34,257 bases of DNA from a virus. Of the stretch, positions 4,517-34,257 are shown piece by piece. Under the pieces are notes generated by a model. That model worked only from the letters and a program-made list of their open reading frames with translations. It was not told the origin of the DNA and made no database searches. Within the stretch, counting starts at the first letter, position 1. Every line of letters begins with the position of its first letter. Both the position numbers and the translations under genes were made by a program. The stretch lies in the IMG/VR virus record IMGVR_UViG_3300007734_000605, positions 1 through 34,257 of that record; one strand, given 5' to 3'.

Positions 4517-5015
4517 TTATATTCTTTATTATTTTTTCTCTTAGTGTGATTATATGCTTCCTTACTGTCTTATATGGTATTTTAGTTCTATTTGCTACCT
4601 CTTGATATGAGCCACATTCAGCGTATATTTCAAGTAACTTAGCAGATGCAGGATAAATATTCTTTGAGTTACAATAGATTACTTCCTTTCTCAATTCTTC
4701 CTCAACATCTATAAAAATACTTTCATCAATTACTTCGTATTCAAACATATCAGCATACACTACCCTGTCCTTATATTGTTTGTTAAATTCGCTGCGTTCA
4801 CTCTTAGCATTGATGTAAATTATTCTAGCAACATACATTCTAAGCCCTCCAGATTCACTTAATGCAATTAATTTATCTTCGTTCATTTCCATTAAGTAAA
4901 GAACTACATATTGAAATAAATCATTGTAAGTATCGCCAATGCCACAAACCTGTTTACAATAGTTTAGGTATTGTTTATCGTTATAAATACCTTCTATTAT
5001 TTTGTTGCGTGTCAT
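4485..5015 (-). CDS. Sigma-70-like transcription factor
   Basis: The 176-residue protein resembles a reduced sigma factor. Residues 14-45 (ending in DLFQYVVLYLMEM) resemble the DLxQExxL helix of sigma region 2, and residues 125-162 contain a region 4-like helix-turn-helix with SYQEVANRTKIPYKTVRKHI (136-155). Between them is a charged linker with no recognised domain. It overlaps the upstream nuclease gene by 4 bp (ATGA) and the downstream glycosyltransferase by 32 bp. Such proteins in Bacteroidota phages are usually annotated as sigma-like regulators. It is a candidate partner for the GGGCA-N16-CTATATTA motif before late genes, though this is inference. It could instead be a plain HTH regulator. 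Confidence 0.65.
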   Translation of the reverse strand: MTRNKIIEGIYNDKQYLNYCKQVCGIGDTYNDLFQYVVLYLMEMNEDKLIALSESGGLRMYVARIIYINAKSERSEFNKQYKDRVVYADMFEYEVIDESIFIDVEEELRKEVIYCNSKNIYPASAKLLEIYAECGSYQEVANRTKIPYKTVRKHIITLREKIIKNINDKNITCNTG

Positions 5016-5476
5016 TTCGCTAAATTAATTAAAAATTTATCGTAATAAATAATAAATTCATCAAAACTATGAACTAACCAATACTGCCCTCCAGCAGCTT
5101 CAATATTCTTTTGATATTTCTTTTGATATTCAGATTGTTTATCCTTCATTTTTACTTCAATCTTTACACTCATTCCCTTTATTGTTGCGCTAATATCAGC
5201 ACTTCCTTTAGTGCTATTGCCAGGAATATATTTGCCACTGCCTATTGTTCTTTGTCTGCCTAATACATCTGTTACAACTATTGAATCATCAATATATCTT
5301 CCTGTTGTTGAAATCCGTTCAGCTTGATGGGATGAGAAGTTAAGAAAATCAACAATACTTTTTGTTAAACCATTTGCAGTCTTATCTGAATACTTAGGTA
5401 TTGGTAGTGCATGATCGGGGAAGTTAGGGTGCTTTTCTTTTAATTTTATCAATGCTAAATCTTTAATTCTTTTCAT
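5012..5476 (-). CDS. VRR-NUC-type (PD-(D/E)XK) nuclease
   Basis: The C-terminal half of this 154-residue protein carries a VRR-NUC/PD-(D/E)XK nuclease signature: KGSADISA (90-97) with Asp94, KIEVKMKDKQSEYQ (105-118) with Glu107, Lys109 and Gln114, then AAGGQYWLV (127-135). These residues bind the metal and cut DNA in this superfamily, which in phages often acts as a Holliday-junction or replication-linked resolvase. The N-terminal 60 residues are not recognised. The gene overlaps the primase-helicase by 14 bp and the sigma-like gene by 4 bp, which supports a role in replication or recombination. Confidence 0.8.
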   Translation of the reverse strand: MKRIKDLALIKLKEKHPNFPDHALPIPKYSDKTANGLTKSIVDFLNFSSHQAERISTTGRYIDDSIVVTDVLGRQRTIGSGKYIPGNSTKGSADISATIKGMSVKIEVKMKDKQSEYQKKYQKNIEAAGGQYWLVHSFDEFIIYYDKFLINLAK

Positions 5477-7823: not shown

Positions 7824-7831
7824 CAAATATA
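7824..7831 (-). promoter_or_regulatory. Bacteroidota-type -7 box (TATATTTG)
   Basis: Read on the minus strand, this is TATATTTG, a perfect match to the Bacteroidota TAnnTTTG -7 element. A TTTG at 7849-7846 lies 14 bases upstream, shorter than the usual 17-23 spacing, so the -33 element is doubtful. Transcription from here would give a leader of about 120 bases containing the pseudoknot candidate, then the primase-helicase operon. Confidence 0.5.
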
Positions 7832-8720: not shown

Positions 8721-8736
8721 TTTACGATATATTTCA

Positions 8737-17568: not shown

Positions 17569-19593
17569 TTATTTTAATTTAGTAACATTTTGAAACCATA
17601 TATGTCTACATTGCGGAGTTGGTGCTGCTGTGTTAGGATTAGAATACCATCCGCCACGTGTTTCCCAAACATCAGTACCTAAATCATTGCTTAAATTTTG
17701 AATTTCTTCATAGGTATAAAGCTTGTCCATCTTAACCATATCAATACAGAACTCTCTTGAAACACCTTTTAATTTAGGCGCATTGGTACGCAGCTCATAA
17801 GAATAAAGTAATTCAATATTCGCTGTCTTTGCACCTTCTTCAATAACAATATCCAATGCTGCTGCGGATGGTGTAAATCCTAAGTCTGTTGCATTCAAAT
17901 ATTCTAATTGAACTAATGTATCAATTATTTTTTCTACCTCTTTATTTGATATTTTTAAAGCCTTCGCAATTTCTGTTGTGGGTGTATTTTCTTCCTTGTT
18001 CAATAAATCAATTACTGCCCTTTGATCTGCTGTTAATTCATTTGCAAAGTATTCAGCTTTTTTTTCTAATACAGAATGGAATGTAGCATTTTCAATTTCA
18101 GAACTTTTATAAATATTAAATAATGATTTTGACCTACCTATTTTTTTAAATTCGCTAGTTAATTTTAAGCTGTCAATTTGTTTTACACCAACTGCATAAC
18201 TGTTATGCGCTGACATTAATGTATCTGTTTGTGTTTTGGTAGTAGTTTTTACCAAGCCTCCAATAAGTCCAACAAGTCCTCTTATTTCTTCTGTACTCAT
18301 TGATTCTAATACCTTGTTAGCCACCAATGGACTTAATGAATTGATAGCATTTATAACTGTTTTAGCATCCGCATTTTCATTTTCTTTTTTCGCTGTTGTT
18401 ATTCCTAACTTTTCTTTAACAAAATCAATAGGCATCGCCTGTGCTATCAATGAATCAGGAATACCAAAACCAATGGCTGTTGTTTGTTCCAAATATAATT
18501 TTCCCGATATACCTTTTAATTTATAAAACTTGTTAAACACCTTTGCTAAAATTCTTTGTCTTTTTGAAACGTAAGTATTTTGAAATAGTTCGTAAGCTTC
18601 TGCAATCTCTGTCCTACCTCCTAACTGCCCTTCTGTCTTAACTCCAAATAAAATAGGTGAGCAAACTTTATGTCCAACAAATATCTCCTGCCTTACATCT
18701 TTTTTTAATTCAATATATCTCTTATCCAAATCATTTCCACTTAAAGAAACAACATCGCTACCCCTATCTTTGCCATCCGAAAAATTCACAATGATACCAC
18801 CTGCCCGATCACTCCCCATGAACTTAGACTTAATCATTCTTTCTATTTCTTTTTTCTTTGGCTCGTCAGGGATACCATTGTAAAAGTTTAAAATAGTTCC
18901 TGCCGAAAATCCTGTCTTTATTTCTGATAAATTATAATTAGAACATTCTAAATCAGTTTCCATTGCTTGTGTCGAGCCTATGTATTCAGGCATGGAATAA
19001 ACATTCGGATCTTTACCCTTGCGTGGTGCTGTTATTTGAAATAGAAATATAGATGAACCTTTAGTTACTTTTGCATCGAATGGCAAATACTCCTTTAGAC
19101 CTGTCTTTTCTTCGCTTTGCGCAACTATTGACCAGTCTTTACTGTAATAGTATTTCGTTTGTGATTCGTTCGTTCTAATCTTATTAAATGGAATATGAAA
19201 CAAATCAAAATCAGTTCCTAACTTATTCCAAATTACTTCTAAAGCAAATCCGTTGAATATTTCAAAATCTAAAAACACTGCATCACTTAATTCATCAAGT
19301 GATTCATAAGGATTAATAGAACTAATAAAATCATTTGCAATAGCTGTATTAACCATAGTCATTCCAGCTTTATTCACCTTCCAACCATTTCCTAAAATAT
19401 AATTTACTTTACCAGTAATAATAGCATTGTTCGTTGAAGACCGCATAAATAGGTCAATCAAGTAATCAGGATAGTCGTTTAATTCTCCCCAATATACCCA
19501 ATCCTTTGAACGTACTTGTTTAAATTCAGGAATCTTTTGATTCTCAAATTTAACAAACATCAATCCATGTTCCTTATGTGCTTCCTGTTCCAT
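17569..19593 (-). CDS. Portal protein with C-terminal winged-helix-like and MuF-like segments
   Basis: Residues 1-400 look like a phage portal: KDWVYWGELNDYPDYLIDLF (30-49), then NNAIITGKVNYILGNGW (55-71) and a conserved core with EIFVGHKVCSPILFGV (303-318). Portals form the dodecameric DNA entry ring. Residues about 520-568 read as a winged helix (TPTTEIAKALKISNKEVEKI). Residues 596-674 (LKGVSREFC, RGGWYSNP, ending CRHIWF) match the C-terminal piece of MuF-type minor head proteins. At 674 residues it is longer than most portals, consistent with a fusion. It overlaps the upstream virion gene by 20 bp. Confidence 0.75.
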   Translation of the reverse strand: MEQEAHKEHGLMFVKFENQKIPEFKQVRSKDWVYWGELNDYPDYLIDLFMRSSTNNAIITGKVNYILGNGWKVNKAGMTMVNTAIANDFISSINPYESLDELSDAVFLDFEIFNGFALEVIWNKLGTDFDLFHIPFNKIRTNESQTKYYYSKDWSIVAQSEEKTGLKEYLPFDAKVTKGSSIFLFQITAPRKGKDPNVYSMPEYIGSTQAMETDLECSNYNLSEIKTGFSAGTILNFYNGIPDEPKKKEIERMIKSKFMGSDRAGGIIVNFSDGKDRGSDVVSLSGNDLDKRYIELKKDVRQEIFVGHKVCSPILFGVKTEGQLGGRTEIAEAYELFQNTYVSKRQRILAKVFNKFYKLKGISGKLYLEQTTAIGFGIPDSLIAQAMPIDFVKEKLGITTAKKENENADAKTVINAINSLSPLVANKVLESMSTEEIRGLVGLIGGLVKTTTKTQTDTLMSAHNSYAVGVKQIDSLKLTSEFKKIGRSKSLFNIYKSSEIENATFHSVLEKKAEYFANELTADQRAVIDLLNKEENTPTTEIAKALKISNKEVEKIIDTLVQLEYLNATDLGFTPSAAALDIVIEEGAKTANIELLYSYELRTNAPKLKGVSREFCIDMVKMDKLYTYEEIQNLSNDLGTDVWETRGGWYSNPNTAAPTPQCRHIWFQNVTKLK

Positions 19594-19981
19594 ATCCTTT
19601 ATACTTGCGTGATGTAGGGTTATATACTGTGAATGTTGTATCCGTTCCTATTACTTTTATTTTACCATTTTCAACCATCGAGCCTGTTGCAGATTCTAAT
19701 AAATTACTCGTAGAAGCTTGTTCAAATATTTGATACTTCCAAAAGCCAGTAGGATTTAATTTTATTACACCACTTGAAACATTTATTGTTCCGCTAGTTT
19801 CTGTAATTAGAAATTTATCATATCTATCTTTATAGCTAGATAGATTAGCAGATAAAAATAGTACTGATTCCCTCGTTAAATCGTTTGTAAGCTTAAATAA
19901 AAATGTCGGTGATGCTATCGTTACCTTTTCAGTTAGCGTTAGTATAAGCGTGTTATTTGAGTTTTTATTTATTACTAGCAT
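19574..19981 (-). CDS. Beta-rich virion-associated protein, 135 aa
   Basis: The sequence is dominated by short beta strands (NTLILTLTEKVTIASPTFLF, VSSGVIKLNPTGFWKYQIFE), with a Ser/Thr-rich composition. Similar proteins lie beside portal or tail genes in Bacteroidota phages, and a structural role is likely. A TATATT-type promoter element lies 7 bases upstream of the ATG, making it the first gene of the portal-to-fibre unit. It overlaps the portal gene by 20 bp. The exact role is unknown. Confidence 0.55.
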   Translation of the reverse strand: MLVINKNSNNTLILTLTEKVTIASPTFLFKLTNDLTRESVLFLSANLSSYKDRYDKFLITETSGTINVSSGVIKLNPTGFWKYQIFEQASTSNLLESATGSMVENGKIKVIGTDTTFTVYNPTSRKYKGYGTGST

Positions 19982-19988
19982 CTTAAAT

Positions 19989-20017
19989 TAATATAGCAAA
20001 ATGTTATATTTTTTCCT
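19989..20017 (-). promoter_or_regulatory. Weaker copy of late promoter-like motif
   Basis: Minus-strand CTATATTA (19996-19989) is identical to the element before three other late genes. At the conserved 16-base distance the upstream half reads AGGAA, sharing three of five positions with GGGCA. It would drive the unit starting with the 135-residue virion gene and the portal. Confidence 0.45.
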
Positions 20018-20026
20018 TTTAATTGC

Positions 20027-20034
20027 TATTTTTG
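20027..20034 (+). promoter_or_regulatory. -7 box (TATTTTTG) for the plus-strand gene
   Basis: TATTTTTG matches TAnnTTTG and ends four bases before the ATG at 20039, so the message would be leaderless or nearly so. It lies back-to-back with the minus-strand late motif at 19989-20017. No -33 TTG is evident. Confidence 0.5.
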
Positions 20035-20038
20035 TAGA

Positions 20039-20392
20039 ATGGAAGCAAAAGAATTAAGGCTTGGTAATTTAATACTGTCAAAGGGATTGATATGTGAAGT
20101 AGAAAAAGTTGAACATGATGGCATAGTTGCACAGTTTAGGCATACCGATATTGAAATGGATAACACAAGAGGGATAGAAGGAATCCCACTAACAAAAGAA
20201 TGGTTGATAAAGTTTGGATTCGTAGACGATGAATTACATTTAGATATGAAAGAAACAGGGTGTATTGATACAATATATTTCAATGATGGAAAGATAGGGA
20301 CATCGGCATCAGAGTACTACGGACTCCATAACATAAAATATATTCATCAATTACAAAATCTTTACTTTGCACTAACAGGCGAAGAACTATAA
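20039..20392 (+). CDS. Plus-strand accessory (moron-like) protein, 117 aa
   Basis: This is the only convincing plus-strand gene. The protein starts MEAKELRLGNLI, has GIPLTKEWLIKFGFVDDEL (49-67), and ends HQLQNLYFALTGEEL, a pattern I recognise from small proteins scattered through Bacteroidota phages and mobile elements, without a known function. It carries its own -7 box and is closed by a hairpin whose A run begins at its stop codon. It interrupts the late operon between the tail tube and portal units. Independent expression and reversed direction fit a moron, a gene that benefits the phage or host outside the virion. Confidence 0.75.
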   Translation: MEAKELRLGNLILSKGLICEVEKVEHDGIVAQFRHTDIEMDNTRGIEGIPLTKEWLIKFGFVDDELHLDMKETGCIDTIYFNDGKIGTSASEYYGLHNIKYIHQLQNLYFALTGEEL

Positions 20393-20422
20393 AAAAAAGG
20401 CTCAACAAATTAATGTTAAGCC
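20391..20422 (-). terminator. Strong intrinsic terminator after tail tube gene
   Basis: On the minus strand a hairpin with paired GGCT/AGCC and AACA/TGTT blocks, one mismatch between them and a 6-base loop, is followed by eight T residues. It ends the capsid-tail tube transcript. On the plus strand it lies right after the accessory gene, so it may act on both, though the plus-strand T tract is only CTTT. Confidence 0.75.
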
Positions 20423-20445
20423 CTTTCCCCCTTAAACTTAAAGTC

Positions 20446-20973
20446 TTATGCTGTTATCTGCAATGATGCGTAAATAGCATCACTCACTGTGTTAGCAGGT
20501 ACTGGTTCTTTTGCTGTGAAAGTTAATGTGTAACCATTCATATCTCCTAAAGCCTTACCACTAGTACCTTCATTAGTTGTTAAGTCTGCGCCATTCACTT
20601 GCCCCATCACATAATTGATTCCGTTAGCATCCTTTACAACTATTATTAATCTGTTGTAAGCTAATGTTAATAGGTTGTTCCTGTGTGATGCACTCATTTT
20701 CTTAATTGTAAAAGTCAATGTTTGCTCAGAATGTGTTGTACCATTTTCAACTGAAACCATTACGCTATCAGTGAACGTAGCATTTTCTTTATCTAATTCG
20801 TACTTAAATAATCTTTTACCACTAGAGCAGGTCATTGCAGAAATAACGCCACTAGAAGCTGTTATATTAGCTTGTGGAACATTTCCATATTCGCCTATCA
20901 ATAAGGATAGCCCCAAGCCACCTACTGAATCCCTACAATCTATTGAATCTCCTTGAACTATATTACAAGCCAT
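20446..20973 (-). CDS. Major tail tube-like protein
   Basis: The 175-residue protein fits the tail tube class of Bacteroidota siphoviruses. It begins ACNIVQGDSIDCRDSVGG, has strands such as QTLTFTIKKMSASHRNNLLT, and ends with the recurring GKALGDMNGYTLTFTAKEPV (135-154). Size and beta-rich composition suit a subunit that polymerises into the tail tube. It follows the capsid gene after a terminator-like hairpin, a common way to adjust levels of abundant virion proteins. A head decoration protein is the main alternative. Confidence 0.65.
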   Translation of the reverse strand: MACNIVQGDSIDCRDSVGGLGLSLLIGEYGNVPQANITASSGVISAMTCSSGKRLFKYELDKENATFTDSVMVSVENGTTHSEQTLTFTIKKMSASHRNNLLTLAYNRLIIVVKDANGINYVMGQVNGADLTTNEGTSGKALGDMNGYTLTFTAKEPVPANTVSDAIYASLQITA

Positions 20974-21004
20974 TTTGTTATTGTATTAAAAGTTTATAAA
21001 TAAA

Positions 21005-21023
21005 TGGGGGATATTATCCCCCA
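21005..21023 (-). terminator. Perfect hairpin after capsid gene
   Basis: TGGGGG-ATATTAT-CCCCCA is a perfect inverted repeat, and the minus-strand transcript continues TTTATTTAT. It lies 7 bases after the capsid stop and 32 bases before the tail tube ATG. The T tract is interrupted, so partial termination or mRNA end protection is likely. This could set capsid-to-tail tube ratios. Confidence 0.6.
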
Positions 21024-21029
21024 CTTTTA

Positions 21030-21986
21030 CTATGTGTTTTTGTAAGTTACAACCTCTGTTGTATAGGCAATTTGATAACCAATTTTCCACTTAATTGACA
21101 TTTTTATATTTTGATCATCGGAACTATACCATGCCTTACTTTCCTCAAAATCACTTATTAAATCTGTTCCTACGAACATATTTGCAGGATAAGTACAAAC
21201 GATTCTTTGACCATAAGATGCTTTAGAACCACTTATAACATTCAATCCATGAACAGCAACTATTTTTAATCCGCTGCCTGGTAGTGTAATAGTTCCTGTG
21301 TTAGCTGCATCCCCTGCTGTGTAATTAAATGCGTTTAAATCTTTTAATGCAATAATTAAAAGTCTAAATACATCCCATCCGCAAAATGCTACTAAATCTT
21401 TCCCTGGTGCATTTAATAATTCCGCAGGTATTTTTTTGTAAACATCATCAAAAATTGAAATAACATTTGCTGCTGTAATTGCTGCTGTTGCTGATGCGTA
21501 GATTGGTGAACCTGCATCAATTTTTTTCAACCATCCATCAACTTGCTTTAAGTCTTGAACACCTAAAGTAGTATCTCCCTGCCATGTGTACTTCTCAGCA
21601 CTTGCATTTAAGTTAGCAATTACATTGTCCATAATCAACTGCTCAAATGGCATTGTATCATAGTTAGAACCAGGAACTAATTTTGTTGATGTGTATTTGT
21701 TCTCCAATGTTTCAGGACAAAAAGTATCATTCCATTTTAAAGGTGATACAGTCAATGTAACATCTGTGAATGTAGATGAACCTGATGCGTTGAACGCACA
21801 TACTCCACCAACCTGAATAGGAGCAACGTTTGCAAACAACATTAATTTGTCTGCGTTTTTAATTCCAGCCTGTATGCTAATACCAGGATACTTCAATGTT
21901 GTTGCCCCTAATATTGCTGCTGTGTAAATCTTGTCTGCGTTCTCACGAACATACGTGGTTAAGCCCGATACAGTAAATCCTGCCAT
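21030..21986 (-). CDS. Major capsid protein
   Basis: The 318-residue protein is the best capsid candidate. It has an N-arm (TVSGLTTYVRENADKIYTAA), a central region with NVIANLNASAEKYTWQGDTT (124-143) and KQVDGWLKKI typical of HK97-fold capsids, and a C-terminal beta-rich domain ending VVTYKNT. It follows a protease gene and a scaffold-like gene, the standard order for head maturation, and is followed by a strong hairpin. Length and composition suit an HK97-fold shell protein. The fold itself is inferred. Confidence 0.8.
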   Translation of the reverse strand: MAGFTVSGLTTYVRENADKIYTAAILGATTLKYPGISIQAGIKNADKLMLFANVAPIQVGGVCAFNASGSSTFTDVTLTVSPLKWNDTFCPETLENKYTSTKLVPGSNYDTMPFEQLIMDNVIANLNASAEKYTWQGDTTLGVQDLKQVDGWLKKIDAGSPIYASATAAITAANVISIFDDVYKKIPAELLNAPGKDLVAFCGWDVFRLLIIALKDLNAFNYTAGDAANTGTITLPGSGLKIVAVHGLNVISGSKASYGQRIVCTYPANMFVGTDLISDFEESKAWYSSDDQNIKMSIKWKIGYQIAYTTEVVTYKNT

Positions 21987-22003
21987 TTTTTTATAGTTTT
22001 AAA

Positions 22004-22633
22004 TTAATTTATTTCGTTATGTATTTTGTTTAAATCTTCTTTGTATGCTTTTCTAAATTCAGAAACATTAAATGCTTTTTTTGTAGGCTCTGTTGGTGCT
22101 GCACTAGGCTCGTTCCCAATTTTTGTCAATAAAGAAAACATTTGTTTTATTGTTTCATTTTGTAATTCTATTTTATTTTCTAATGCTGATAATTCATTAT
22201 TTTTTTGTGTTGCAAAATTTTCTTTTACAGTTAATAAATTTTCAAACATTTTATCAATAGCTTCTTTTGAATAATAAGATTCTTTGATAGTGCTTTCAAT
22301 TACTGATTTTGCTTTTGATTCTGTTGCAGCTATTGGAGCAACTACTGGAGCAGCAGCAGCAACTTCTACCTCTACCTCAGCAGGCATTACAGAAGTAACA
22401 ATACCGCCAACTGTTGTGAACATTGTACCATCTTCTAATACATGATCTGCGTCAGGTGCTTCTACTGCGCCTTGTTCTGTAATTACAAATACAGCAACAC
22501 CTATATCTAACTTCTCACCTTCATAGCGTACAATGGTAACACCATCAGCTAATTTAGCATCAACAAATTTTTGAAGCGTAACAAATGCTTCTTTAATTTT
22601 CTTTAGACCTTCCAATAATTTTGACTTATCCAT
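22004..22633 (-). CDS. Capsid scaffold-like protein
   Basis: The preferred ATG (22633-22631, MDKSKLLEGLKKIKEAF) gives 209 residues; the frame extends 24 codons upstream only to a TTG inside the promoter region. Residues about 25-85 (VTIVRYEGEKLDIGVAVFV, then LEDGTMFTTVGGIVTSV) form a small beta domain common in Bacteroidota head genes. An Ala/Val/Glu-rich linker follows, then a long coiled-coil helix (about 125-180) and a basic C-terminal helix. This layout suits a scaffold that binds capsid subunits. It lies between protease and capsid genes and has its own late promoter-like motif. Confidence 0.65.
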   Translation of the reverse strand: MDKSKLLEGLKKIKEAFVTLQKFVDAKLADGVTIVRYEGEKLDIGVAVFVITEQGAVEAPDADHVLEDGTMFTTVGGIVTSVMPAEVEVEVAAAAPVVAPIAATESKAKSVIESTIKESYYSKEAIDKMFENLLTVKENFATQKNNELSALENKIELQNETIKQMFSLLTKIGNEPSAAPTEPTKKAFNVSEFRKAYKEDLNKIHNEIN

Positions 22634-22651
22634 TTTGCTTTGTATTTTAAT

Positions 22652-22680
22652 TAATATAGTAGTTGTTTTTATTATTGCCC
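22652..22680 (-). promoter_or_regulatory. Late promoter-like motif before scaffold gene
   Basis: Minus-strand GGGCA (22680-22676), a 16-base spacer, and CTATATTA (22659-22652). This equals a 17-bp gap between a GGGCA-type -35 and TATATT as -10. The stretch TATAAAAGGGCA, from the end of the protease gene onward, is identical at the next site (23276-23304). An 18-base leader precedes the ATG. Confidence 0.55.
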
Positions 22681-22682
22681 TT

Positions 22683-23270
22683 TTATAATTGTGCGATGTC
22701 ATCAATCATATCTACTATTTCCTGTTCAATAGATACATCTTGTATTTCCATATCAAACATTCCTTCCACAGAATAACCCTGAAAAGTACCATCAATAACA
22801 GATTCCCAAACTTCATTATTATCTACTTTATATGAACCAAACCAACTACCTTCCGTTATTCCTGTGAATCCATCGGGGACTTTAATACCTCTTTTTTCAT
22901 CTATAATAAAACTCTCAAACATATATACACCATCAACCTGCTTGGCAGGATCGTGCATCATGTTTACATTTGAAGTATTTTTTTGTCTGAAAAACTTTTG
23001 CGCTATCTTCTCAATTTCGGCAGCAGGAAATACAACATAATATTCATCCCCTGTTTCTCCGATTCTGTATATCGGCAAGTCTGCCACCATTAACGCACCT
23101 GTGATAATTCTACGCTTTGCATCAACTTTAAACTTCATTTGCTTACTAAACGCAAACCAATTACGTTCTGTTGCAGGAGAATCAACTAACGCAACATAAT
23201 TAACTGAACTATCCCCATCCTCATTAATGGACATGGTGTATATCGGTAATTTCTTTTTAGGCTTTTTCAT
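22683..23270 (-). CDS. XkdF-like prohead protease
   Basis: The 195-residue protein fits the XkdF family of phage serine proteases. It opens IYTMSINEDGDSSVNYVALV, then GALMVADLPIYR (58-69), VNMMHDPAKQVDGVYMFES (102-120) and GSWFGSYKVD (141-150), and ends the core with GTFQGYSVEGMF (161-172). His106 and Ser167 are the likely catalytic residues by position. Such proteases trim scaffold and capsid during head maturation, and both target genes follow directly. The family is clear; the active-site assignment is inferred. Confidence 0.8.
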   Translation of the reverse strand: MKKPKKKLPIYTMSINEDGDSSVNYVALVDSPATERNWFAFSKQMKFKVDAKRRIITGALMVADLPIYRIGETGDEYYVVFPAAEIEKIAQKFFRQKNTSNVNMMHDPAKQVDGVYMFESFIIDEKRGIKVPDGFTGITEGSWFGSYKVDNNEVWESVIDGTFQGYSVEGMFDMEIQDVSIEQEIVDMIDDIAQL

Positions 23271-23275
23271 TTAAA

Positions 23276-23304
23276 TAATATAGTTGTATTTTAAATTAAT
23301 GCCC
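23276..23304 (-). promoter_or_regulatory. Late promoter-like motif before protease gene
   Basis: Minus-strand GGGCA (23304-23300), 16 bases, then CTATATTA (23283-23276), five bases before the ATG at 23270. Predicted transcription would begin at or beside the start codon. Together with the site at 22652-22680 it shares more than 20 aligned identical positions, beyond the two core boxes. Confidence 0.55.
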
Positions 23305-23306
23305 TT

Positions 23307-25157
23307 TTATAGATGAGAAGCCACTTCTAATGAATTAACTCTACGCTGTGAGGTACTTATATCAGTTTCAACTACAAATGCCCTTACAGATCCATTACCA
23401 CCTTGTTGATTATTTACTGTGCCATCAGGATTTAAGGATGTTGTTCCGCTGGATGGCGCATTAATTGTTGGTGCTGTTCCTGTAACTGGTGCTACTATTT
23501 CAGGAACTGAACCACCTCCACCTGTTCCACTTTCATTAAACTTTGTTGCTGCTATCTTAGCAACTCCAGCAGCACTTGATAAACCTACTGCAATGGGTAA
23601 AGCAATATTTAAAGGGAATGGTGAGTTAGTAGCATTTATAACACCTTGCAATCCTGAAATGATAGCACTTGAAATGGATAGAGCCTTATTAATATTGAAT
23701 TGCTTCTTAGCCATTTCCAACTCTTCCTTACTACCCTTCTTTAAATTCCTACTCTTTACAGCAAAGAATATATCTGACAGCCCTTGTAAAGATTGGTTTG
23801 TAGCATTTGCTAATTTAACATCCTCATCAAACTTCGCTTGATTTAATTTCTTAGTATCTTCTAAATCTTTTTTCTTTTTTTCCTCTGCTGTTAGTGCATC
23901 CTGCGTTCTTAAAGTATTGATGTCATCGTAATACTTAGATTCTATAAGTAGTTGAGCATCTATTTTAGATTTGTAAGCTTCTGCCCCTAGATTAGTTTTA
24001 GCGTATTCGCTTTCTATTTCTGCTAAATCTTTTGCTAGTTTAATATTTAATACCTCTTGGTCATTTGCTGCTAGTCTTATGCTTTCATCCTCTTTTAATT
24101 TAGCAACCTTTTGCAGTAATGAAATAGTATTTTCTAATTCTTTAGCATCGTTTTCCCTTTGTTCCTGTGCTGCTTTATCGGATAAGGTCTTTAAGAATGC
24201 AGCTTGTTTCTTTGCTTCTGCTAAATATTTCTCATCCTCTTGTTTTTTCTTATCTGCATCCTTTTGCCGCTGGTCAGCACTAGCCTTTAGATAATTTAAA
24301 TCAATTATTTCTAGCTTCCTAATCAAATCAACTTTCTCTGCTAATTCTTTTGAAGTTAATTTCCCTTGATACCCTGCAACAAAGCCTAACTCATCAAACT
24401 TATCCTGTACTGCCTTACGTTCTAAGTCCCTAACTTCCGTAATGCTTTTACCTTGTAATTTAGCAACCTCAATATCATGCTGAAATCCTTTATCATTTAA
24501 TTTCTGCTTTTCTCTTATAGCATCAATATCCGATTCAATTATTTTTATATGCTCACGTTCTAGCGCATTCATTCGCAATTGTACATTTGCTGCTGAATTA
24601 GTTGAATCAGTAAATAATTTTATCCCTACTACAACCGCTGCTAATCCTGCAATTAACAAGCCTATTGGATTCAACGCTAATGCAAGATTATAAGCGTACT
24701 GCGCTGCTGTTACTAAGTACGTTCCTAATGTTGTTGATTTTAATACTTTAGTTAAGGTCGCAAAGCTATCACCCATAGCTATTACACCCTTTATCCCTTC
24801 GGTGAATGCCATCACCGCCTGAACCTTCAATAGTTGTTTTTCTAATTCTTTATTCTCCCCACCAAATAAAGCCATCGCACCAGTAGCAGCTTGAAATCCA
24901 CTAGCCACACCGCTTATAACATTGCCAAATGCTTGTACTTTACCTTCGGGATTAAACGCATTTATCTCAGCATTCAAATCCCCAATGTTATCTCTGATAC
25001 TACCTAATTTCTTAAGCGTAGCAATATACTTTTCTGAACCTGTTGTTAATCCATCAAGTTCTTTTTGTGCATCTTTAAATTCTTGCTTTAGTGATTTAAG
25101 TGATTTCGTGCCATCACCAATATCCACCGAAGCTTTATACGCTATATCTATTGCCAT
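23307..25157 (-). CDS. Tape measure protein
   Basis: The 616-residue protein has the features of a tail tape measure: an N-terminal helical region, a hydrophobic segment at about 160-183 (NPIGLLIAGLAAVVVGIKLF), a long charged coiled-coil stretch from about 195 to 450 rich in Lys, Glu and Ala, a second hydrophobic region near 485-532, and a Gly/Pro/Ser-rich linker to a C-terminal piece (VETDISTSQRRVNSLE). At about 0.15 nm per residue it would set a tail near 90 nm, consistent with a siphovirus. It follows the large tail proteins in transcription. Confidence 0.85.
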   Translation of the reverse strand: MAIDIAYKASVDIGDGTKSLKSLKQEFKDAQKELDGLTTGSEKYIATLKKLGSIRDNIGDLNAEINAFNPEGKVQAFGNVISGVASGFQAATGAMALFGGENKELEKQLLKVQAVMAFTEGIKGVIAMGDSFATLTKVLKSTTLGTYLVTAAQYAYNLALALNPIGLLIAGLAAVVVGIKLFTDSTNSAANVQLRMNALEREHIKIIESDIDAIREKQKLNDKGFQHDIEVAKLQGKSITEVRDLERKAVQDKFDELGFVAGYQGKLTSKELAEKVDLIRKLEIIDLNYLKASADQRQKDADKKKQEDEKYLAEAKKQAAFLKTLSDKAAQEQRENDAKELENTISLLQKVAKLKEDESIRLAANDQEVLNIKLAKDLAEIESEYAKTNLGAEAYKSKIDAQLLIESKYYDDINTLRTQDALTAEEKKKKDLEDTKKLNQAKFDEDVKLANATNQSLQGLSDIFFAVKSRNLKKGSKEELEMAKKQFNINKALSISSAIISGLQGVINATNSPFPLNIALPIAVGLSSAAGVAKIAATKFNESGTGGGGSVPEIVAPVTGTAPTINAPSSGTTSLNPDGTVNNQQGGNGSVRAFVVETDISTSQRRVNSLEVASHL

Positions 25158-25169
25158 TTCTTTTTATTA

Positions 25170-27941
25170 TTAATCTGTCCATACTCCTTCTTCATAGCAG
25201 TAAATATGCAATGAGTTCCTACTTGCTACTGCATACCCTACATTCGCCCCTAACAATGTTGTTCCCCTTCTAAACTGATCTCCAAGTCTAGGGTACACTG
25301 TCATACTGTTTGCTCCTACATTTTTAAATGTCTGTTCTGCGTTTAATGTTGCTAATATTGTCTTGATAGAATCAGCAGTAGTAGCCACTGTTTCTATAAG
25401 ATTAAATTTCTTTGTAGTTTGATACCCATTTGTTTGTCCGCCCCCTGCATAGGCTGTAATGCCTTGTTCGCTTTGACTTCCGCTAGGTAAAAAAACACCA
25501 TTCACAATAGAAATATTACTTTCAGTAACAACTGCATTGTGCGAATTCAAAACGAAAACATCGGTAACACCAGGAAACACAGTTACTCCGCTACTTCCAA
25601 ATATCCCTACATTGCCCGAACCTGCACCAACATAATTCCCATTACCAAGCACAACACTATTAACCACAGTAGTATCTACTACACTCCCTGTCCCTACAAA
25701 TGTACTAATCGGACCAACTGTCGCTGTATCAACTAATATAGGTACATTGTCGCCTGTATTATAAGCAGGACCAATAACACCTACTGCAACACCTAATTCA
25801 GCAACAAATGCTAAAGCTTCTTTTATCTTTATGAACTCGCATTTAGTTAGTTCGTTGCTTAAAGGATTGTAATCGTAAATCTTATTCAATCGTAGCAAAT
25901 TGCCATCAACAAAAAACTGATTACGAAAATCTAATAAGTAAATATCTAATGGTGATAAATAAAAATAAGCTGTAATAATTTTAGAATCCTTATCCGTTAT
26001 TTCCTCTATGTATTTTTTATAATATTTATTATAAAGATTATTATTAGTGTACGCTGTTGTGATGTAATAAATATCTTGCGGAACTCCGAAATTCAAATCA
26101 AATGTAGGGAGCAATGGTGTATCAACATGCCCTGCGTATGGGTAAGTAGTTTCTGTTGTTGTTCCTGATACACTTCCTGTATATGTCCAAGAATCATTTG
26201 TATTTTTTAAATCAAAATAAAGAATTCTAAGATTGCAGTTTTTTATGTTAGTTAATCCTAATCCATCATTTCCTAGTGTTGATATTTGCGATATAATTCT
26301 ATCCGTTGTTCCTGTCTTAGATAATGGTGTTGGAGAAAAAATAATATCAATAGTTTTAGTTCCCTTTATAAAATCAGTATCAATATCTTTATTCATAGTT
26401 CCGTAAGGCTCTAAGAATCCATTTTGATATTTCTGATTATAATAATCTTTATCTTCCTTGTATTTAAAAGTATATCGTGAAGCGTTCAACTCACCCATTG
26501 GGTCAATATCCATCACCCTATCAATACTTAATTTGTCAGTCCAATCTTTTGTAACACCTGCTGAATAGAAGTCATTACGTGGCTCTATGTAAAGTTTATT
26601 GGCAATAGTTTTATCCGTTTCAATATAGAGGTTAAACATTTTAATTATCGAAGTAAAAAAATCTTTTATCTTGATGTTACGAGGGATAGCCATATCATTC
26701 ATGACTAGAGAATCACCATCAAATATTCCTGTGTTGATAGCTTTATTTTCAAATGTGCTATTTGCTAAAATATTAACAGTATAAACAGAATTGATTAACT
26801 GTAAATACTGATAGTCAAGACGAAAACCAACTACATATTTTGAACCTGCTAGTAAAACAGTTGTAGGTGTTGAAAAAGTTATTGTAAAGGTTGCAGATGA
26901 ACTATTATTATTAATGGTTTGAGATGGCATTGTATACGTTGCAGAACCAACTGTTACAATGTTGCCAAAAGAATCCATTATACCAATCAAAAAATGAATA
27001 TTAGTTGGTATTAAAGAAATAGATGCACCAGCTAAACCACTAACCCCTATTTTAAAATTAATTGTGCTTGTAAATTGATAACTACCTTTATTTCCATTTA
27101 CGTATTCAAATAATGTCGTATTGTATTGATTACTAACATCACTTACATCGGTGTCAAATTCTATTCTCGTATTTGCTAATAATGGTAAAAATGTAATGCC
27201 TGATGGTGTAATAGTATATGTCTTTGCTACGTAATTAGCATTTCGTTTAGCTTTAAAATATCGTAATGTTAGTTGTGCTTCCGATAATAATAAAGTAGTT
27301 GCATTAAAAGGTATAATTAATCTTTTAAAAAATGCACTATCAAAGAATGCAGAACTATAAGTATAGCCTGCTTTAACGAACATCGAATCAATATACTGCT
27401 TTACATAGATAGCAGGAAAGAAATTTTCTACATCAAAGGTCAAAGCATTCGTTACAGAATAGTCAATCATTGGATAAACATAACCAACACCATAAGTCGC
27501 TACCCATGAAGCCTTCTGTGCTGCCTTGTTATAGGTATGATTGTAAGCTGACAAATCCAAATCAATTAATTCTAAGTCTGCCCAGTCTGTGAAGATATTA
27601 CCAACATTGCCCTTGATGGCAACCTCGTACTCTATCTGATTGTCATCTGTTTTGTTTATTTTAAGTAGCTGTAAGAATCCCTGCATCTGCAATAGTTCAT
27701 CAACATATAGCCTACATGGTGTTTTAAGATTTGCGTTAAAATTAGATTGTATATTAATTTCAAAGATGTGAGCAAAGATTATATTATTTGCTTTGCTGCC
27801 TGGTATCTTGATGGTTTTAGAATAGCTACTATTACGCTTGTCAGGTTCTCTAATATCTGCAATAGCGTAATTTAATGAATAGGGTATATTATCAAGTAAA
27901 TCAATACTTCCACTCGTTCCTAGTTCTAGTCTTGTTCTCAT
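25170..27941 (-). CDS. Large tail / baseplate protein, 923 aa
   Basis: This is the longest gene. The N-terminal part (RTRLELGTSGSIDLLDNI, then YSKTIKIPGSKANNIIFAHI) is typical of a large tail protein family of Bacteroidota phages. The middle is beta-rich; the last 200 residues contain Gly/Val/Asn-rich repeats and a distal module (LNAEQTFKNVGANSMTVYPR, then LHIYCYEEGVWTD) that looks like a tail-tip or receptor-contact end. It probably forms the distal tail or baseplate hub. Its start is 1 base after the previous stop. The exact component is uncertain. Confidence 0.65.
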   Translation of the reverse strand: MRTRLELGTSGSIDLLDNIPYSLNYAIADIREPDKRNSSYSKTIKIPGSKANNIIFAHIFEINIQSNFNANLKTPCRLYVDELLQMQGFLQLLKINKTDDNQIEYEVAIKGNVGNIFTDWADLELIDLDLSAYNHTYNKAAQKASWVATYGVGYVYPMIDYSVTNALTFDVENFFPAIYVKQYIDSMFVKAGYTYSSAFFDSAFFKRLIIPFNATTLLLSEAQLTLRYFKAKRNANYVAKTYTITPSGITFLPLLANTRIEFDTDVSDVSNQYNTTLFEYVNGNKGSYQFTSTINFKIGVSGLAGASISLIPTNIHFLIGIMDSFGNIVTVGSATYTMPSQTINNNSSSATFTITFSTPTTVLLAGSKYVVGFRLDYQYLQLINSVYTVNILANSTFENKAINTGIFDGDSLVMNDMAIPRNIKIKDFFTSIIKMFNLYIETDKTIANKLYIEPRNDFYSAGVTKDWTDKLSIDRVMDIDPMGELNASRYTFKYKEDKDYYNQKYQNGFLEPYGTMNKDIDTDFIKGTKTIDIIFSPTPLSKTGTTDRIISQISTLGNDGLGLTNIKNCNLRILYFDLKNTNDSWTYTGSVSGTTTETTYPYAGHVDTPLLPTFDLNFGVPQDIYYITTAYTNNNLYNKYYKKYIEEITDKDSKIITAYFYLSPLDIYLLDFRNQFFVDGNLLRLNKIYDYNPLSNELTKCEFIKIKEALAFVAELGVAVGVIGPAYNTGDNVPILVDTATVGPISTFVGTGSVVDTTVVNSVVLGNGNYVGAGSGNVGIFGSSGVTVFPGVTDVFVLNSHNAVVTESNISIVNGVFLPSGSQSEQGITAYAGGGQTNGYQTTKKFNLIETVATTADSIKTILATLNAEQTFKNVGANSMTVYPRLGDQFRRGTTLLGANVGYAVASRNSLHIYCYEEGVWTD

Positions 27942-29159
27942 TTAGTAGCGTTGTCTATATCGGTCAAATCCATATTGTATATCTAATTCTAAATTAAATA
28001 CTTTATTATTTAAAATAGTTTTAGTATCGAATCTCGTTGCTGAACAGGTTACTGATATTAATCCGTAAGTACTATCATCTAAATATATTTCAGGGCTTTC
28101 AACGAGTTGCCTAAGCATTACCATTTCTAAATCAGTGAGCCAATCACTCTTTATTTTAATTGTATCTTTAGAACTAATAAAGTACTGCCTATCCCCTCTA
28201 TCTTTAACAGCGTAGCCAAATGCACTAGCGGAAGTTAATGCGCCTATTGGTGCTTTATATTGCAGTCTATTAATATCCGTTGATTTGCTGCTTAACTTAG
28301 TGAAGTTGAATGATTCAAAACCTCCTGAATCGTTAAGAAAATGTAGTCTGTAATTAGTGTACTTACAATCTGCATCCGTTAAATTATATTGAATGGTTGA
28401 ACTTATTACTCCGCTAGAACTATCTTGAAAATTTACTGTATAATAGGCAGCATTTGAAGCTATGATGGGTTGTGTTCCATATTTCAAAGCTGCTGGTATT
28501 GCATTTAACTGGTCTTTGCCTGTTCCGAATCTTGCAAAATGATTTCCTATTACTCCACTTGATGACAATGTATTCGTTACTCCGCATGACTTAATTAAAG
28601 CCCCTGCCGATGTATAACTCTTGATGCCGATATGTGATAGTGATGCAGGAGAACTTCCATCCGCTACCCAATACAACCAACTGTAATCACCTGTTAATTG
28701 ATTCCTTGCACCTGTGAACCTTGTAAGCCATGCGCCTGAACCTTCCATTGTGTACGCTTCTTGATTGTATGTTTGTGCTTCTAAGAAATCTAACACACCA
28801 TTCCATACATACTTTACAACTGTTTGTGTTCTGTTTAAATATTGAGTTATAGTAGTTCCGAACTCCTCACCAAATCTAACGTAGTATTCTTTATAGCTAT
28901 TTGCGTTTGTCTGAAAACTTAAAGCAGTTCTATCAATATCACTATTTACATAAGCTTCTATTATCCTACCAATATTAAATACACCACTTCCATAGGTAGG
29001 ATTCGCAGGTGCTTTAATAGTAATTACATCACTATTTATATACACCTGTGCTATGTAATTAAAGTTTGTCTGTCCGTTATTGCTCGATGTTACAACATAT
29101 ATCTGATCGTTGTAAGCAGGTGCATATAGTGATGGTTGCTGTGAAATTGAATAAGCCAT
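27942..29159 (-). CDS. Tail-associated structural protein, 405 aa
   Basis: The protein is beta-rich and Ser/Thr/Tyr-rich throughout, starting SISQQPSLYAPAYNDQIYVV and including VFNIGRIIEAYVNSDID (60-76), a pattern of conserved tail proteins in Bacteroidota phages. Near the C-terminus, LEMVMLRQLVESPEIYLD resembles the end of the same family. It is encoded between the tail-completion gene and the 923-residue tail protein, with no gap. A distal tail or baseplate location is likely; the precise role is unknown. Confidence 0.6.
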   Translation of the reverse strand: MAYSISQQPSLYAPAYNDQIYVVTSSNNGQTNFNYIAQVYINSDVITIKAPANPTYGSGVFNIGRIIEAYVNSDIDRTALSFQTNANSYKEYYVRFGEEFGTTITQYLNRTQTVVKYVWNGVLDFLEAQTYNQEAYTMEGSGAWLTRFTGARNQLTGDYSWLYWVADGSSPASLSHIGIKSYTSAGALIKSCGVTNTLSSSGVIGNHFARFGTGKDQLNAIPAALKYGTQPIIASNAAYYTVNFQDSSSGVISSTIQYNLTDADCKYTNYRLHFLNDSGGFESFNFTKLSSKSTDINRLQYKAPIGALTSASAFGYAVKDRGDRQYFISSKDTIKIKSDWLTDLEMVMLRQLVESPEIYLDDSTYGLISVTCSATRFDTKTILNNKVFNLELDIQYGFDRYRQRY

Positions 29160-29744
29160 TTATGATGTTGTAAAATTTATTTCAATATCTTTTTTTAATG
29201 CTTCGGATATTTCTTTTGTTAGTCGCTGTTTTAAATCTTCATTAATTACATTGGTAAAAAAATGCGTAGGTCTTAATCCATCTCGCTTTATCACTGCTCC
29301 TAAAGCCCATGCATAACTTTCATAAGCTGCATTTATTTTCTTTGCTCCAAGTTTTTTATTAACTCTTTTGTTCGGTTTCGCTACTGATTTAGGAACAAGC
29401 CCACGAAACTTAATTAATTTTAACATTGCATCTAATGGTATTCTTTTACCATTTTTTTTGTACTTATATTCTGATCCTCTGCTTTGCTTTGTGCCATCAA
29501 CCCCTTTATCAACGAACTTCCAATAGTCATTCATCACTAACTCAAAGGAAATATTATTAGATTCTACTTTAACAAATCCATCAATACTCTTTAATAATTC
29601 TCCAGGCTGGTCCCGATTAACATTGATTAAACTCTCTCGCAAATCTTGTATTAAGTCAGCCCTATATTTTAAAAATATATCTTCAACAGTCTTAGCAACA
29701 AATGTTTTATTTACAACTATCCTATCTGCTCTTTCTATTGGCAT
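29160..29744 (-). CDS. HK97 gp10-like tail completion protein
   Basis: The 194-residue protein resembles gp10-like tail-completion proteins. Residues about 12-50 form a helix with LIQDLRESLINVNRDQPGEL. FELVMNDYWKFVDKGVDGTK (66-85) is the recognisable core, followed by a basic loop rich in Lys and Arg. It ends in a helix (LKQRLTKEISEALKKDIEIN). Such proteins finish the tail at the neck. The start overlaps the tail-chaperone extension by 23 bp. The family assignment is fairly good; its order before the large tail genes is normal for siphoviruses. Confidence 0.6.
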   Translation of the reverse strand: MPIERADRIVVNKTFVAKTVEDIFLKYRADLIQDLRESLINVNRDQPGELLKSIDGFVKVESNNISFELVMNDYWKFVDKGVDGTKQSRGSEYKYKKNGKRIPLDAMLKLIKFRGLVPKSVAKPNKRVNKKLGAKKINAAYESYAWALGAVIKRDGLRPTHFFTNVINEDLKQRLTKEISEALKKDIEINFTTS

Positions 29745-30003
29745 TTCTTATTGCTATTTGATTTTGTTCGTGTTCCCATTTCTGTTTGTCTTTAAAAAAT
29801 GAAATACAATTTAAGAACTCTATTATATTCATCGAAGTAAAGAACTCCCATTTTGTCCTATCGTGATTTGAAAGACTATCTAATATTAAATGCCACCCCC
29901 AGTACTCTTGAAATCCTTGGCTATTGCTTTTTTCAGTTGCTTCCTCGCCTTGTTGGTTTGTAATTCCGAATAGTCCAGCGTAGCCTTTGCTAAGGTTTGC
30001 CAA
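29722..30003 (-). CDS. Tail chaperone frameshift extension (T-like part)
   Basis: This frame has no ATG before the middle of its conserved part; only a TTG at 30003 precedes it. Downstream of the overlap it encodes a coherent sequence (QEYWGWHLILDSLSNHDRTK, then MNIIEFLNCISFFKDKQK) that looks like the second half of a tail assembly chaperone. It lies in the -1 frame of the 212-residue gene and overlaps it by 118 bases. It is best read as a gpG/gpGT-type fusion made by -1 frameshifting, probably at the A run at 29928-29933, less likely at the T run at 30010-30018. Independent TTG initiation is the alternative. Confidence 0.6.
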   Translation of the reverse strand: MANLSKGYAGLFGITNQQGEEATEKSNSQGFQEYWGWHLILDSLSNHDRTKWEFFTSMNIIEFLNCISFFKDKQKWEHEQNQIAIRNANRKSR

Positions 30004-30524
30004 CTCTTCAAAAAAAAACCTGATAACATCATTACATCGTCCATCATTAAGTTATCCTCAACTATTTTAGCAGTCTTGTTCCTACTCTCTAAAGTTTGGC
30101 AATCCTTTTCGTAGCAGTTTTTCTTTTTAAACCTAAAGAAATTTACAGGATGCAGGAAGATGGCAATTATCTTAGGTAGATTTTTTGTAACATCGGACTT
30201 CTCTTTAATCATAGAAGTTAAATCTATGTATTCACCGCCACTAATTTTCTTTAAGTTAGTATTAATATTGAACCTATGTCCACCTATTTTTATAGATTGC
30301 TTAATATGTTTTGTCGGTGGCTTAGTATAAATGAATTGGCAGCTCCTTATTGCTGTTTTTAACGAGGATAGTTCCATAGCACATAGTAATTCCTCGTTAG
30401 TATTAGATAATACTGCTAAGACCTTAATTTGCTTGTCTAACTCATCCATATCAATTTGTGATATGTCAGTAATCTCGATGTATTGTTTTAGGGATACTTC
30501 CGCCCAGTTATTTGCGACCTTCAT
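29886..30524 (-). CDS. Tail assembly chaperone (G-like part)
   Basis: The 212-residue protein starts MKVANNWAEVSLKQYIEITD and is mostly helical, with a basic, beta-containing middle (IKQSIKIGGHRFNINTNL). It lies after the terminase genes and upstream of tail-completion and tape measure genes. In siphoviruses this position holds a chaperone pair, often joined by a programmed frameshift, that keeps the tape measure soluble. The last 39 codons overlap the -1 frame extension. A late promoter-like motif sits just before the ATG. The role is inferred from position and frameshift layout. Confidence 0.6.
   Translation of the reverse strand: MKVANNWAEVSLKQYIEITDISQIDMDELDKQIKVLAVLSNTNEELLCAMELSSLKTAIRSCQFIYTKPPTKHIKQSIKIGGHRFNINTNLKKISGGEYIDLTSMIKEKSDVTKNLPKIIAIFLHPVNFFRFKKKNCYEKDCQTLESRNKTAKIVEDNLMMDDVMMLSGFFLKSWQTLAKATLDYSELQTNKARKQLKKAIAKDFKSTGGGI
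29928..29933 (-). other. Candidate -1 frameshift site
   Basis: In the chaperone frame the message reads CTG AAA AAA GCA. Six A residues let a lysyl-tRNA slip back one base into the extension frame, giving KQLKK joined to SNSQGFQEYWGW. It is not the ideal A-AAA-AAG heptamer in frame. A T-TTT-TTT heptamer in the correct phase occurs at 30010-30018 and is an alternative. Confidence 0.4.
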
Positions 30525-30528
30525 AATT

Positions 30529-30557
30529 TAATATAGCAAATCAAATGACTTTTGCCC
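30529..30557 (-). promoter_or_regulatory. Late promoter-like motif before tail chaperone gene
   Basis: Minus-strand GGGCA (30557-30553), 16 bases, then CTATATTA (30536-30529), four bases before the ATG at 30524. It lies in the 74-base gap after the terminase gene, the largest gap in this part of the genome, and would start the tail-gene transcript. The flanking bases differ from the other sites, so the two boxes stand out. Confidence 0.55.
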
Positions 30558-33439: not shown

Positions 33440-33597
33440 TTCTTTACTTTTAAATCAATTAACATTGCCTTTGCCCTTCTCCACATATTAGGTCTGCATT
33501 TGTAACATATTCTAGCATCGCAGGATTGACAGTAGTATGTTCTCTTGATACTTATATCAGTATCCAGTAACTCGCAAACTCTACAAATTCCGTTCAT
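33436..33597 (-). CDS. Small zinc-finger-like protein, 53 aa
   Basis: The frame carries three CxxC pairs: CRVC (5-8), CQSC (23-26) and CYKC (31-34), followed by a basic helix (RPNMWRRAKAMLIDLKVKK). Two pairs could hold one zinc and the third may support a second site. Similar tiny cysteine-rich proteins recur in Bacteroidota phages. It overlaps the upstream gene by 17 bp and the next by 4 bp. Nucleic-acid binding is plausible from the basic tail. Confidence 0.65.
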   Translation of the reverse strand: MNGICRVCELLDTDISIKRTYYCQSCDARICYKCRPNMWRRAKAMLIDLKVKK

Positions 33598-33793: not shown

Positions 33794-34257
33794 AAATAGG
33801 AAGTTCTTTAAATGATGCTAGACTCATGAATGGTTTGTTATTTATTTTTTGCATAACACAATAAACATTCCACCCATCTGTTGAGTTACCCATTGCAGGA
33901 TGCTCCCCTAATTCTAATATAGCATAATCGTTAGATTTTGCCAGTTGAGTATAGAAGTCTGTTGAATAGTAGTTGTATCCATGCCCCCTCCAGTTGCCAG
34001 TCTTTGGATTCTCCGAAATAATAAATCCATTTTCTTTTGTTAAATTGTGCTTTGTTTTAAGGCAATTATAGAACGCTGTTACATTGTGTTTACTTTTTAC
34101 TTCAATATGTTCACTCGTACCAAAATCAGTAACTAAATCAAATATTTTATCTATTTTGACAGGCTTGGCAAGATTTATATTCAAAGCATTGTTGCAACCT
34201 CCTATATCAATGCAGGTGTATTCAATACCCTTTGATTCGTAGTATGTACTTGCAAAT
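33783..34257 (-). CDS. SAM-dependent methyltransferase, C-terminal part (gene split by window ends)
   Basis: This part runs from the right edge and continues the gene that begins at base 249. Residues 78-90 of the joined protein read KIFDLVTDFGTSE, the acidic motif that follows the SAM-binding core in many class I methyltransferases, and residues near 125-150 (GFIISENPKTGNWRGHGYNY) form a probable substrate loop. Total length would be about 198 residues. It ends 11 bp inside the next gene. Bases 34131-34257 repeat the first 127 bases of the window, so the gene is complete only after circular joining. Confidence 0.7.
   Translation of the reverse strand, partial: FASTYYESKGIEYTCIDIGGCNNALNINLAKPVKIDKIFDLVTDFGTSEHIEVKSKHNVTAFYNCLKTKHNLTKENGFIISENPKTGNWRGHGYNYYSTDFYTQLAKSNDYAILELGEHPAMGNSTDGWNVYCVMQKINNKPFMSLASFKELPIYDS
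34131..34257. repeat. Right copy of imperfect terminal direct repeat
   Basis: This copy differs from bases 1-127 at six positions. Two changes fall in one serine codon (TCT versus AGT on the coding strand), three are third-position silent changes, and one changes Asn55 to Thr. The pattern indicates purifying selection on a real gene and strain-level variation in the source. Confidence 0.9.

Follow-up and report, generated by a model that had tools for sequence, protein, structure and literature searches.

A two-box element, very probably a late promoter, and a putative phage sigma factor in a family of uncultured Bacteroidota phages

Which signal starts the late genes of an uncultured Bacteroidota phage, and which protein reads it? 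The question arises in IMG/VR record IMGVR_UViG_3300007734_000605, a stretch of 34,257 bases (b), called the window below, in which the late genes lie on the minus strand and three of them are preceded by the same two boxes, GGGCA and CTATATTA, with 16 bases in between. This two-box element is very probably the late promoter of a whole phage family. Its reader is most likely the phage's own small sigma factor, for which the window encodes a candidate of the extracytoplasmic function (ECF) type.

A two-box element ahead of late genes

Exact copies of GGGCA-N16-CTATATTA occur three times on the minus strand of the window, 4-18 nucleotides (nt) before late genes, and not at all on the plus strand (Table 1). 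With up to one mismatch allowed, there are four matches against 0.09 expected. In the late minus-strand intergenic DNA (1,027 b), CTATATTA is present four times versus 0.10 expected, with none on the opposite strand, and the full bipartite motif is present three times versus zero in 400 of 400 shuffles. CTATATTA alone is mildly enriched across the whole window (9 versus 3.9), and the five copies outside the four sites lie in coding sequence. A generic E. coli-type promoter scan of the window, which returns 40 matches versus 52 expected, is uninformative in such AT-rich DNA.

An earlier note on this DNA had described two boxes with exactly 16 bases between them at three late genes, and all of its coordinates and spacings are borne out; the bipartite motif also passes the check named there, as it is not equally frequent in shuffled intergenic DNA. 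For a fourth site, the note had reported CTATATTA with a weaker AGGAA upstream half. Both halves are present, and the gap that the note missed is again exactly N16, so all four sites share this spacing. The site does precede the portal unit, as had been claimed, with the correction that the first gene there encodes 135 amino acids (aa) and the portal gene comes only next. The scaffold site is likewise correctly assigned and does lie ahead of its gene, whose start codon is the ATG at 22642 rather than the TTG farther upstream at 22705. The label 'tail chaperone' for the gene at 29886-30524 has to be dropped, as no family match backs it.

Table 1. Late promoter sites, their target genes, the sigma-like gene and host-type boxes in the window
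Feature	Position	Strand	Sequence or product	Context
Late promoter 1	30529..30557	-	GGGCA-N16-CTATATTA	4 nt from ATG of post-terL gene
Late promoter 2	23276..23304	-	GGGCA-N16-CTATATTA	5 nt from protease ATG
Late promoter 3	22652..22680	-	GGGCA-N16-CTATATTA	between protease stop codon and scaffold ATG
Late promoter 4	19989..20017	-	AGGAA-N16-CTATATTA	7 nt from ATG of 135-aa pre-portal gene
Candidate fifth site, uncertain	33915..33943	-	TGGCA-N16-CTATATTA (1 mismatch)	within an open reading frame, ~120 nt upstream of 70-aa gene 33581-33793
Post-terL late gene	29886..30524	-	212 aa, no family match	target of promoter 1
Head maturation protease	22683..23270	-	XkdF-like, Peptidase_S78_2	target of promoter 2
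Putative scaffold gene	22004..22642	-	assigned by position between protease and capsid-type gene	target of promoter 3
Capsid-type gene	21030-21986			directly after putative scaffold gene
Pre-portal gene	19574..19981	-	135 aa	target of promoter 4
Portal	17569-19593			follows the 135-aa gene, overlapping its end by 20 bases
Small sigma-like protein	4485..5015	-	176 aa	region-2-like N-terminal domain, flexible linker, region-4-like helix-turn-helix (HTH) C-terminal domain
Putative degenerate host-type -7 box	5020..5027	-	TAATTTAG	directly before sigma ATG
Host-type -7 box	7824..7831	-	TATATTTG, matches TAHHTTTG (PMC6847099)	ahead of primase/helicase (5463-7694) - nuclease - sigma run

Scans of IMG/VR with TerL and capsid proteins yield about 150 related loci. 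Family genomes are ~33-38 kb tailed phages that share a syntenic late module of terL, the post-terL gene, tail-region genes, tape measure, protease, scaffold, capsid, capsid+1, pre-portal gene and portal. A DNA-level search for named relatives of the window finds none, and its TerL is less than 30% identical to those of named phages; the phage collection contains no named phage close to the family. Among genome collections, related terminases are found in metagenome-assembled genomes of Chitinophagaceae and Flavobacteriaceae, which suggests Bacteroidota hosts.

The four sites of the window recur in close relatives. Promoter 1 is kept in L004-L008, promoters 3 and 4 in both L084 and L086, and promoter 2 in L084, being altered to AGGTA-N17 in L086. 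The AGGAA-N16-CTATATTA of promoter 4 is found in identical form in L008, where it adjoins the counterpart of the 70-aa gene 33581-33793. In the window, the place of this L008 promoter is occupied by an open reading frame (33783-34256) without family matches, inside which the TGGCA-N16-CTATATTA of the uncertain fifth site lies.

Lineage-specific boxes at conserved positions

A recurring element, mostly of two boxes, stands at the same four genes (post-terL, protease, scaffold and pre-portal) in about 15 lineages. Box sequences differ between lineages and are common to unrelated sites of one genome. The window and L084/L086 use GGGCA or AGGAA with CTATATTA, L090 uses GGTCA with CTATATTA, and G012 uses AAAATATAA with CTATATTA. 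Other pairs are CACAA with TATACT in G010, TTAGCCA with TATAT in G017, GTACAA with TTATATTA in G018, GCCAA or ACCAA with TAGTACTT in G034/G041, and CAAC with TACTTA in G037, while G033, G038 and G023 carry ACGTAATTTTAT, GTAAGTTTA and GGTACTTT, respectively. The G034 form, [AG]CCAA-N11-TAGTACTT, is present at three sites, one of them read from the near-identical G041.

The within-genome sharing of boxes was assessed by a permutation test in which the sites of 15 lineages were dealt out among genomes. The sites had first been spotted by eye and the test was designed afterwards; all four sites of all chosen lineages were entered, whether or not a motif is visible. Non-homologous late sites within genomes reach a mean pair score of 10.96 versus a null of 8.21 (sd 0.25), corresponding to a z of 11 and to 0 of 5000 permutations, and the same test on control genes (capsid, capsid+1 and portal) gives a z of 0.7. 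The sharing persists when the CTATATTA lineages are excluded (z 8.8), when the protease-scaffold pair is excluded (z 9.5) and when the window is removed. In genome-wide searches, lineage motifs fall almost only at late gene starts (5 of 5 in G010, 3 of 3 in G033 and 4 of 5 in G038, with 0-0.4 expected). TATATTA matches in L015-L034 were rejected as promoters, being located in coding sequence.

The geometry of the element points to a promoter rather than a translation signal, because the gap between the boxes is mostly fixed while the distance from box to ATG varies. The box-to-box gap is constant in most lineages, at 16 in all four sites of the window, 13 in five sites of G010, 15 in three sites of G037 and 15 in two sites of L090. 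The box-to-ATG distance ranges from 2 to 19 nt; it is 2-7 nt in most sites and usually longest before scaffold.

These short distances have a consequence for the predicted messages. With the first T of TATATT set at -12, like the host -7 element of Flavobacterium johnsoniae (PMC6847099), three of the four late genes in the window would have transcripts that start at the AUG or no more than about 2 nt away from it, and the scaffold transcript would start ~13 nt ahead of its AUG. The leader at promoter 3 is thus longer than at the remaining window sites, and across the family most late mRNAs are predicted to be near-leaderless, with a longer leader for scaffold only. The exact start positions depend on this alignment to the host element and are predictions. 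In F. johnsoniae, 87% of mRNAs have leaders longer than 10 nt, and Flavobacterium initiation is tuned by an A at -3 and by mRNA structure (PMC6847099).

Bacteroidota primary-sigma promoters have the form TTTG / TAHHTTTG, with TAHHTTTG as the -7 element (PMC6847099), and the late sites are not of this type: TAHHTTTG occurs at 1 of 55 late sites versus 11% of other gene starts having an upstream gap. In G017, G037, G013 and L008, the last of which is closely related to the window, this box directly precedes the sigma gene, 12-15 nt from its ATG. L008 carries TAATTTTG where the window has the degenerate TAATTTAG. Genes with host-type boxes, among them the window's primase/helicase - nuclease - sigma run, are called early here by analogy.

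The L078, L066 and L082 types (G022/G023) have one obvious box, GGTACTTTATAA, near the ATG and a weak upstream box at most, and their sigma is of a shorter, VIDEL type. Promoter architecture may possibly have changed within the family, in the G022/G023 clade.

The candidate sigma factor as reader of the late boxes

By its predicted fold, the 4485-5015 protein is a small ECF-like sigma factor. AlphaFold models of two family members that are about 25-27% identical reach mean confidence (pLDDT) values of 75.8 and 85.5 and place two domains at residues 1-85 and ~99-174. Member lengths are about 155-192 aa, and the predicted architecture is that of a sigma factor with regions 2 and 4 only. For both models, ECF sigma factors make up most of the top matches among solved structures in the PDB, at middling individual scores. 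Structural alignment matches the N-terminal domain to region 2 of RpoE (5uxx; Z 8.0, 76 residues, 2.9 A) and the C-terminal domain to region 4 of sigma-E on -35 DNA (2h27; Z 7.3, 68 residues, 4.0 A), and matches among viral structures include proteins named sigma-70 region 2, RpoE and ECF. The weight of this model-based evidence lies in the consistency of the match list and in the matching of both domains in order.

Sequence comparison adds faint signals. The window protein matches the PHROG 1190 sigma factor family at E 0.034 and Pfam Sigma70_r4_2 at E 0.04, below the gathering score; across 19 family members, Sigma70_r4_2 is detected in five (best E 0.0016) and Sigma70_r2 in one (E 0.0013). 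A comparison with named phages gives no match. Because a PDB sequence-profile search returns generic HTH proteins and chance matches only, the sigma identity is based on the fold together with the weak Pfam and PHROG matches.

The distribution of the gene is consistent with a role as reader. It is core in 10 of 10 lineages compared. Among the core genes it alone has a transcription-type fold, and the rest are structural, packaging or glycosyltransferase genes or have no assigned function; an Erf-type recombinase (10241-10786) is found in 9 of 10. In these lineages, no other core protein shared by the family is a candidate for reading the late boxes. The glycosyltransferase genes that run on behind the sigma gene (1575-5015) are likewise core in all 10, and they may form a conserved cassette with it. 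Elsewhere in the window, a 78-aa protein (7856-8092) matches PHROG 2044, labelled 'RNA polymerase beta subunit'. This label is probably a mis-annotation, because 78 aa is too small for a whole polymerase subunit.

Further parts of the earlier note were borne out, and its reading is supported, with the early-to-late switch as a presumed consequence. Its sigma-like protein has the predicted fold of small two-domain, ECF-like sigma factors, its contrast between the late boxes and host-type TAnnTTTG boxes agrees with the rarity of TAHHTTTG at late sites, and the scan of relatives that it proposed reveals a motif behaving as a late-promoter class across the whole phage family.

In the mechanism that we propose, the host holoenzyme would transcribe the early genes, including the sigma gene, from host-type TAHHTTTG promoters. 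The phage sigma would then bind the host core RNA polymerase, its region-4-like domain reading the upstream box (GGGCA/AGGAA in the window) and its region-2-like domain the downstream box (CTATATTA in the window). Polymerase would thereby be directed to four or five sites, from which the gene groups for tail, protease, scaffold/capsid and portal would be transcribed, giving a presumptive early-to-late switch. Divergence of both the boxes and the sigma between lineages would give each phage lineage its own late code. We consider this combination of late promoters, a phage sigma as their reader, host-type early promoters and lineage-specific codes to be likely as a whole.

Sigma and promoters do vary together to some extent. 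In partial Mantel tests given TerL, promoter similarity correlates with similarity in sigma region 4 (r 0.32, p 0.006) and region 2 (r 0.39, p 0.0006). Several observations weigh against the proposed mechanism, and one concerns this very signal: when the average over the remaining core proteins serves as control, the sigma correlation is not significant (r 0.19, p 0.095) and that of the portal is r 0.28 (p 0.026). The co-variation is therefore suggestive and not specific to sigma, as some structural genes equal it. The sequence matches of the sigma family all fall under curated cut-offs, and the Foldseek E-values are weak, at best 0.005 for one model and 0.06 for the other. On the promoter side, the gap varies by 2-3 nt in G017 and G018, and the G023, G033 and G038 types show only one obvious box. 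There is no recognisable element at the protease gene in G034, G036 and G037, nor at the post-terL gene in G033; such genes are perhaps read through from upstream.

The same evidence bears on other explanations, of which the least improbable leaves the late promoters to host RNA polymerase with a host sigma factor and another phage activator bound at the upstream box. The 4485-5015 protein would then have a different role, such as acting upon the host sigma or regulating by DNA binding. The absence of a sigma-specific signal in the co-variation test fits this account, and so does the upstream box in the CTATATTA lineages, which is more variable than the downstream box, as expected of an activator site. 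We nevertheless consider it unlikely, given that both boxes vary among lineages (TATATTA, TACTTA, GTAAGTTTA, ACGTAATTTTAT), a sigma-like change of the whole specificity, that the host -7 consensus is nearly absent at late sites, and that the 10 lineages hold no second family-wide transcription-type fold.

The position of most sites, only 2-7 nt from the ATG, could instead mark the element as a translation or mRNA signal, such as a start-site context or an RNA processing site. This is very improbable in view of the fixed spacing between boxes whose distance to the ATG extends up to 19 nt, the absence of the element from the capsid, capsid+1 and portal genes in these genomes, and the reliance of Flavobacterium initiation on A at -3 and mRNA structure, with no such box (PMC6847099). 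That the repeats are functionless, as recent duplications or chance AT-rich matches, is the least credible of these alternatives. In the window, the similarity between the protease and scaffold sites extends over a longer stretch (score 26) and could reflect a local duplication, but sharing persists when this pair is left out and in lineages with other boxes, no shuffle reproduces the motif, and the positions are kept in about 15 lineages. A phage sigma acting at late promoters remains the preferred explanation.

A stronger version of the lineage-specific code has about an even chance of being right. Here, every lineage would have re-coded both halves of all three to five late promoters together, with positions kept, yielding mutually orthogonal sigma/promoter pairs and near-leaderless late mRNAs. 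Examples of such presumed pairs would be GGGCA/CTATATTA, GCACAA/TATACTTA, TTAGCCA/TATATATA, CAAC/TACTTA, ACGTAATTTTAT and GTAAGTTTA. If this is true, near-leaderless late mRNAs would be used in a host that seldom uses leaderless messages.

The proposed mechanism amounts to a family-wide regulatory map in which early genes use host boxes and late genes use phage boxes, and the latter allow late operons to be predicted in uncultured phages. These four loci would offer about a dozen sigma/promoter pairs that have diverged in nature, an unusually clean data set for the joint specificity change of a two-domain sigma and its promoters, and the pairs could serve as orthogonal expression parts in laboratory strains of Bacteroidota. 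Among the papers searched on sigma factors and late promoters of Bacteroidetes or Flavobacterium phages, none was relevant, and no transcription switch was found for Bacteroidota phages of this type.

Three further features of the window lie outside this scheme. A 117-aa open reading frame on the plus strand (20039-20392; PHROG 10066, unknown) sits between the capsid+1 and pre-portal genes, opposite to the late genes. Its own host-type box, TATTTTTG at 20027-20034, lies back-to-back with late promoter 4 and 4 nt before the ATG of this reading frame. L084 and L086 have no space for the frame, and it looks like a moron. A GC-rich hairpin before the capsid+1 gene (20974-21029 in the window) is present in nearly every lineage and is probably a conserved attenuator or terminator tuning expression downstream of the capsid gene. 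Finally, the intergenic region at 8730-8990, ahead of an HNH-endonuclease gene, contains numerous copies of (GG)TTTAAAAT / TTTTAAACC, both direct and inverted, and could be a replication origin or an operator array.

Comparison with known systems

The closest parallels are phiEco32 and 7-11, whose phage sigma, a distant relative of the sigma-A family, serves a few phage-specific promoters (PMC4331800) and has been assigned to the ECF group (PMC7881722). The present family shares with them an ECF-like phage sigma (here by predicted fold) and a few phage-specific promoters before structural genes, with a motif confined to the starts of these late genes. Host-type promoters for the early genes, found there, are proposed for the present family, and initial host control of the sigma gene is a prediction in both cases. 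The two systems differ in that phiEco32 and 7-11 are C3-morphotype podophages of Enterobacteria and not phages of Bacteroidota, and in that their promoters are modelled at extended -10 length, whereas two boxes at fixed spacing are seen here. The code also changes fast between relatives here, and no anti-sigma gene is identified in the present phage.

Cellular ECF sigma factors such as SigL, SigH, AlgU, SigW and sigma-E resemble the phage protein in the predicted succession of region 2, linker and region 4 and in a length of about 175 aa. The phage protein differs from them in that its sequence similarity falls under family thresholds and no anti-sigma partner is found.

Late promoters of phage T4 (TATAAATA) lack a -35 box and are read by gp55, a protein without region 4. 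Common to T4 and the present family are a small phage sigma and a -10-like, AT-rich box shortly before the late genes; the upstream box at fixed spacing and the region-4-like domain set the present system apart. A T4-type late promoter, with a -10-like box only, was rejected as a description of the element because an upstream box with constant spacing is present.

These phages likely rely on Bacteroidota primary-sigma promoters for genes other than the late ones, among them sigma in several lineages. Such promoters differ from the late boxes, in which the TTTG that ends the -7 element is missing. The messages would differ as well: leaders in F. johnsoniae are mostly longer than 10 nt (PMC6847099), whereas late transcripts of the present family are predicted to start at or near the AUG.

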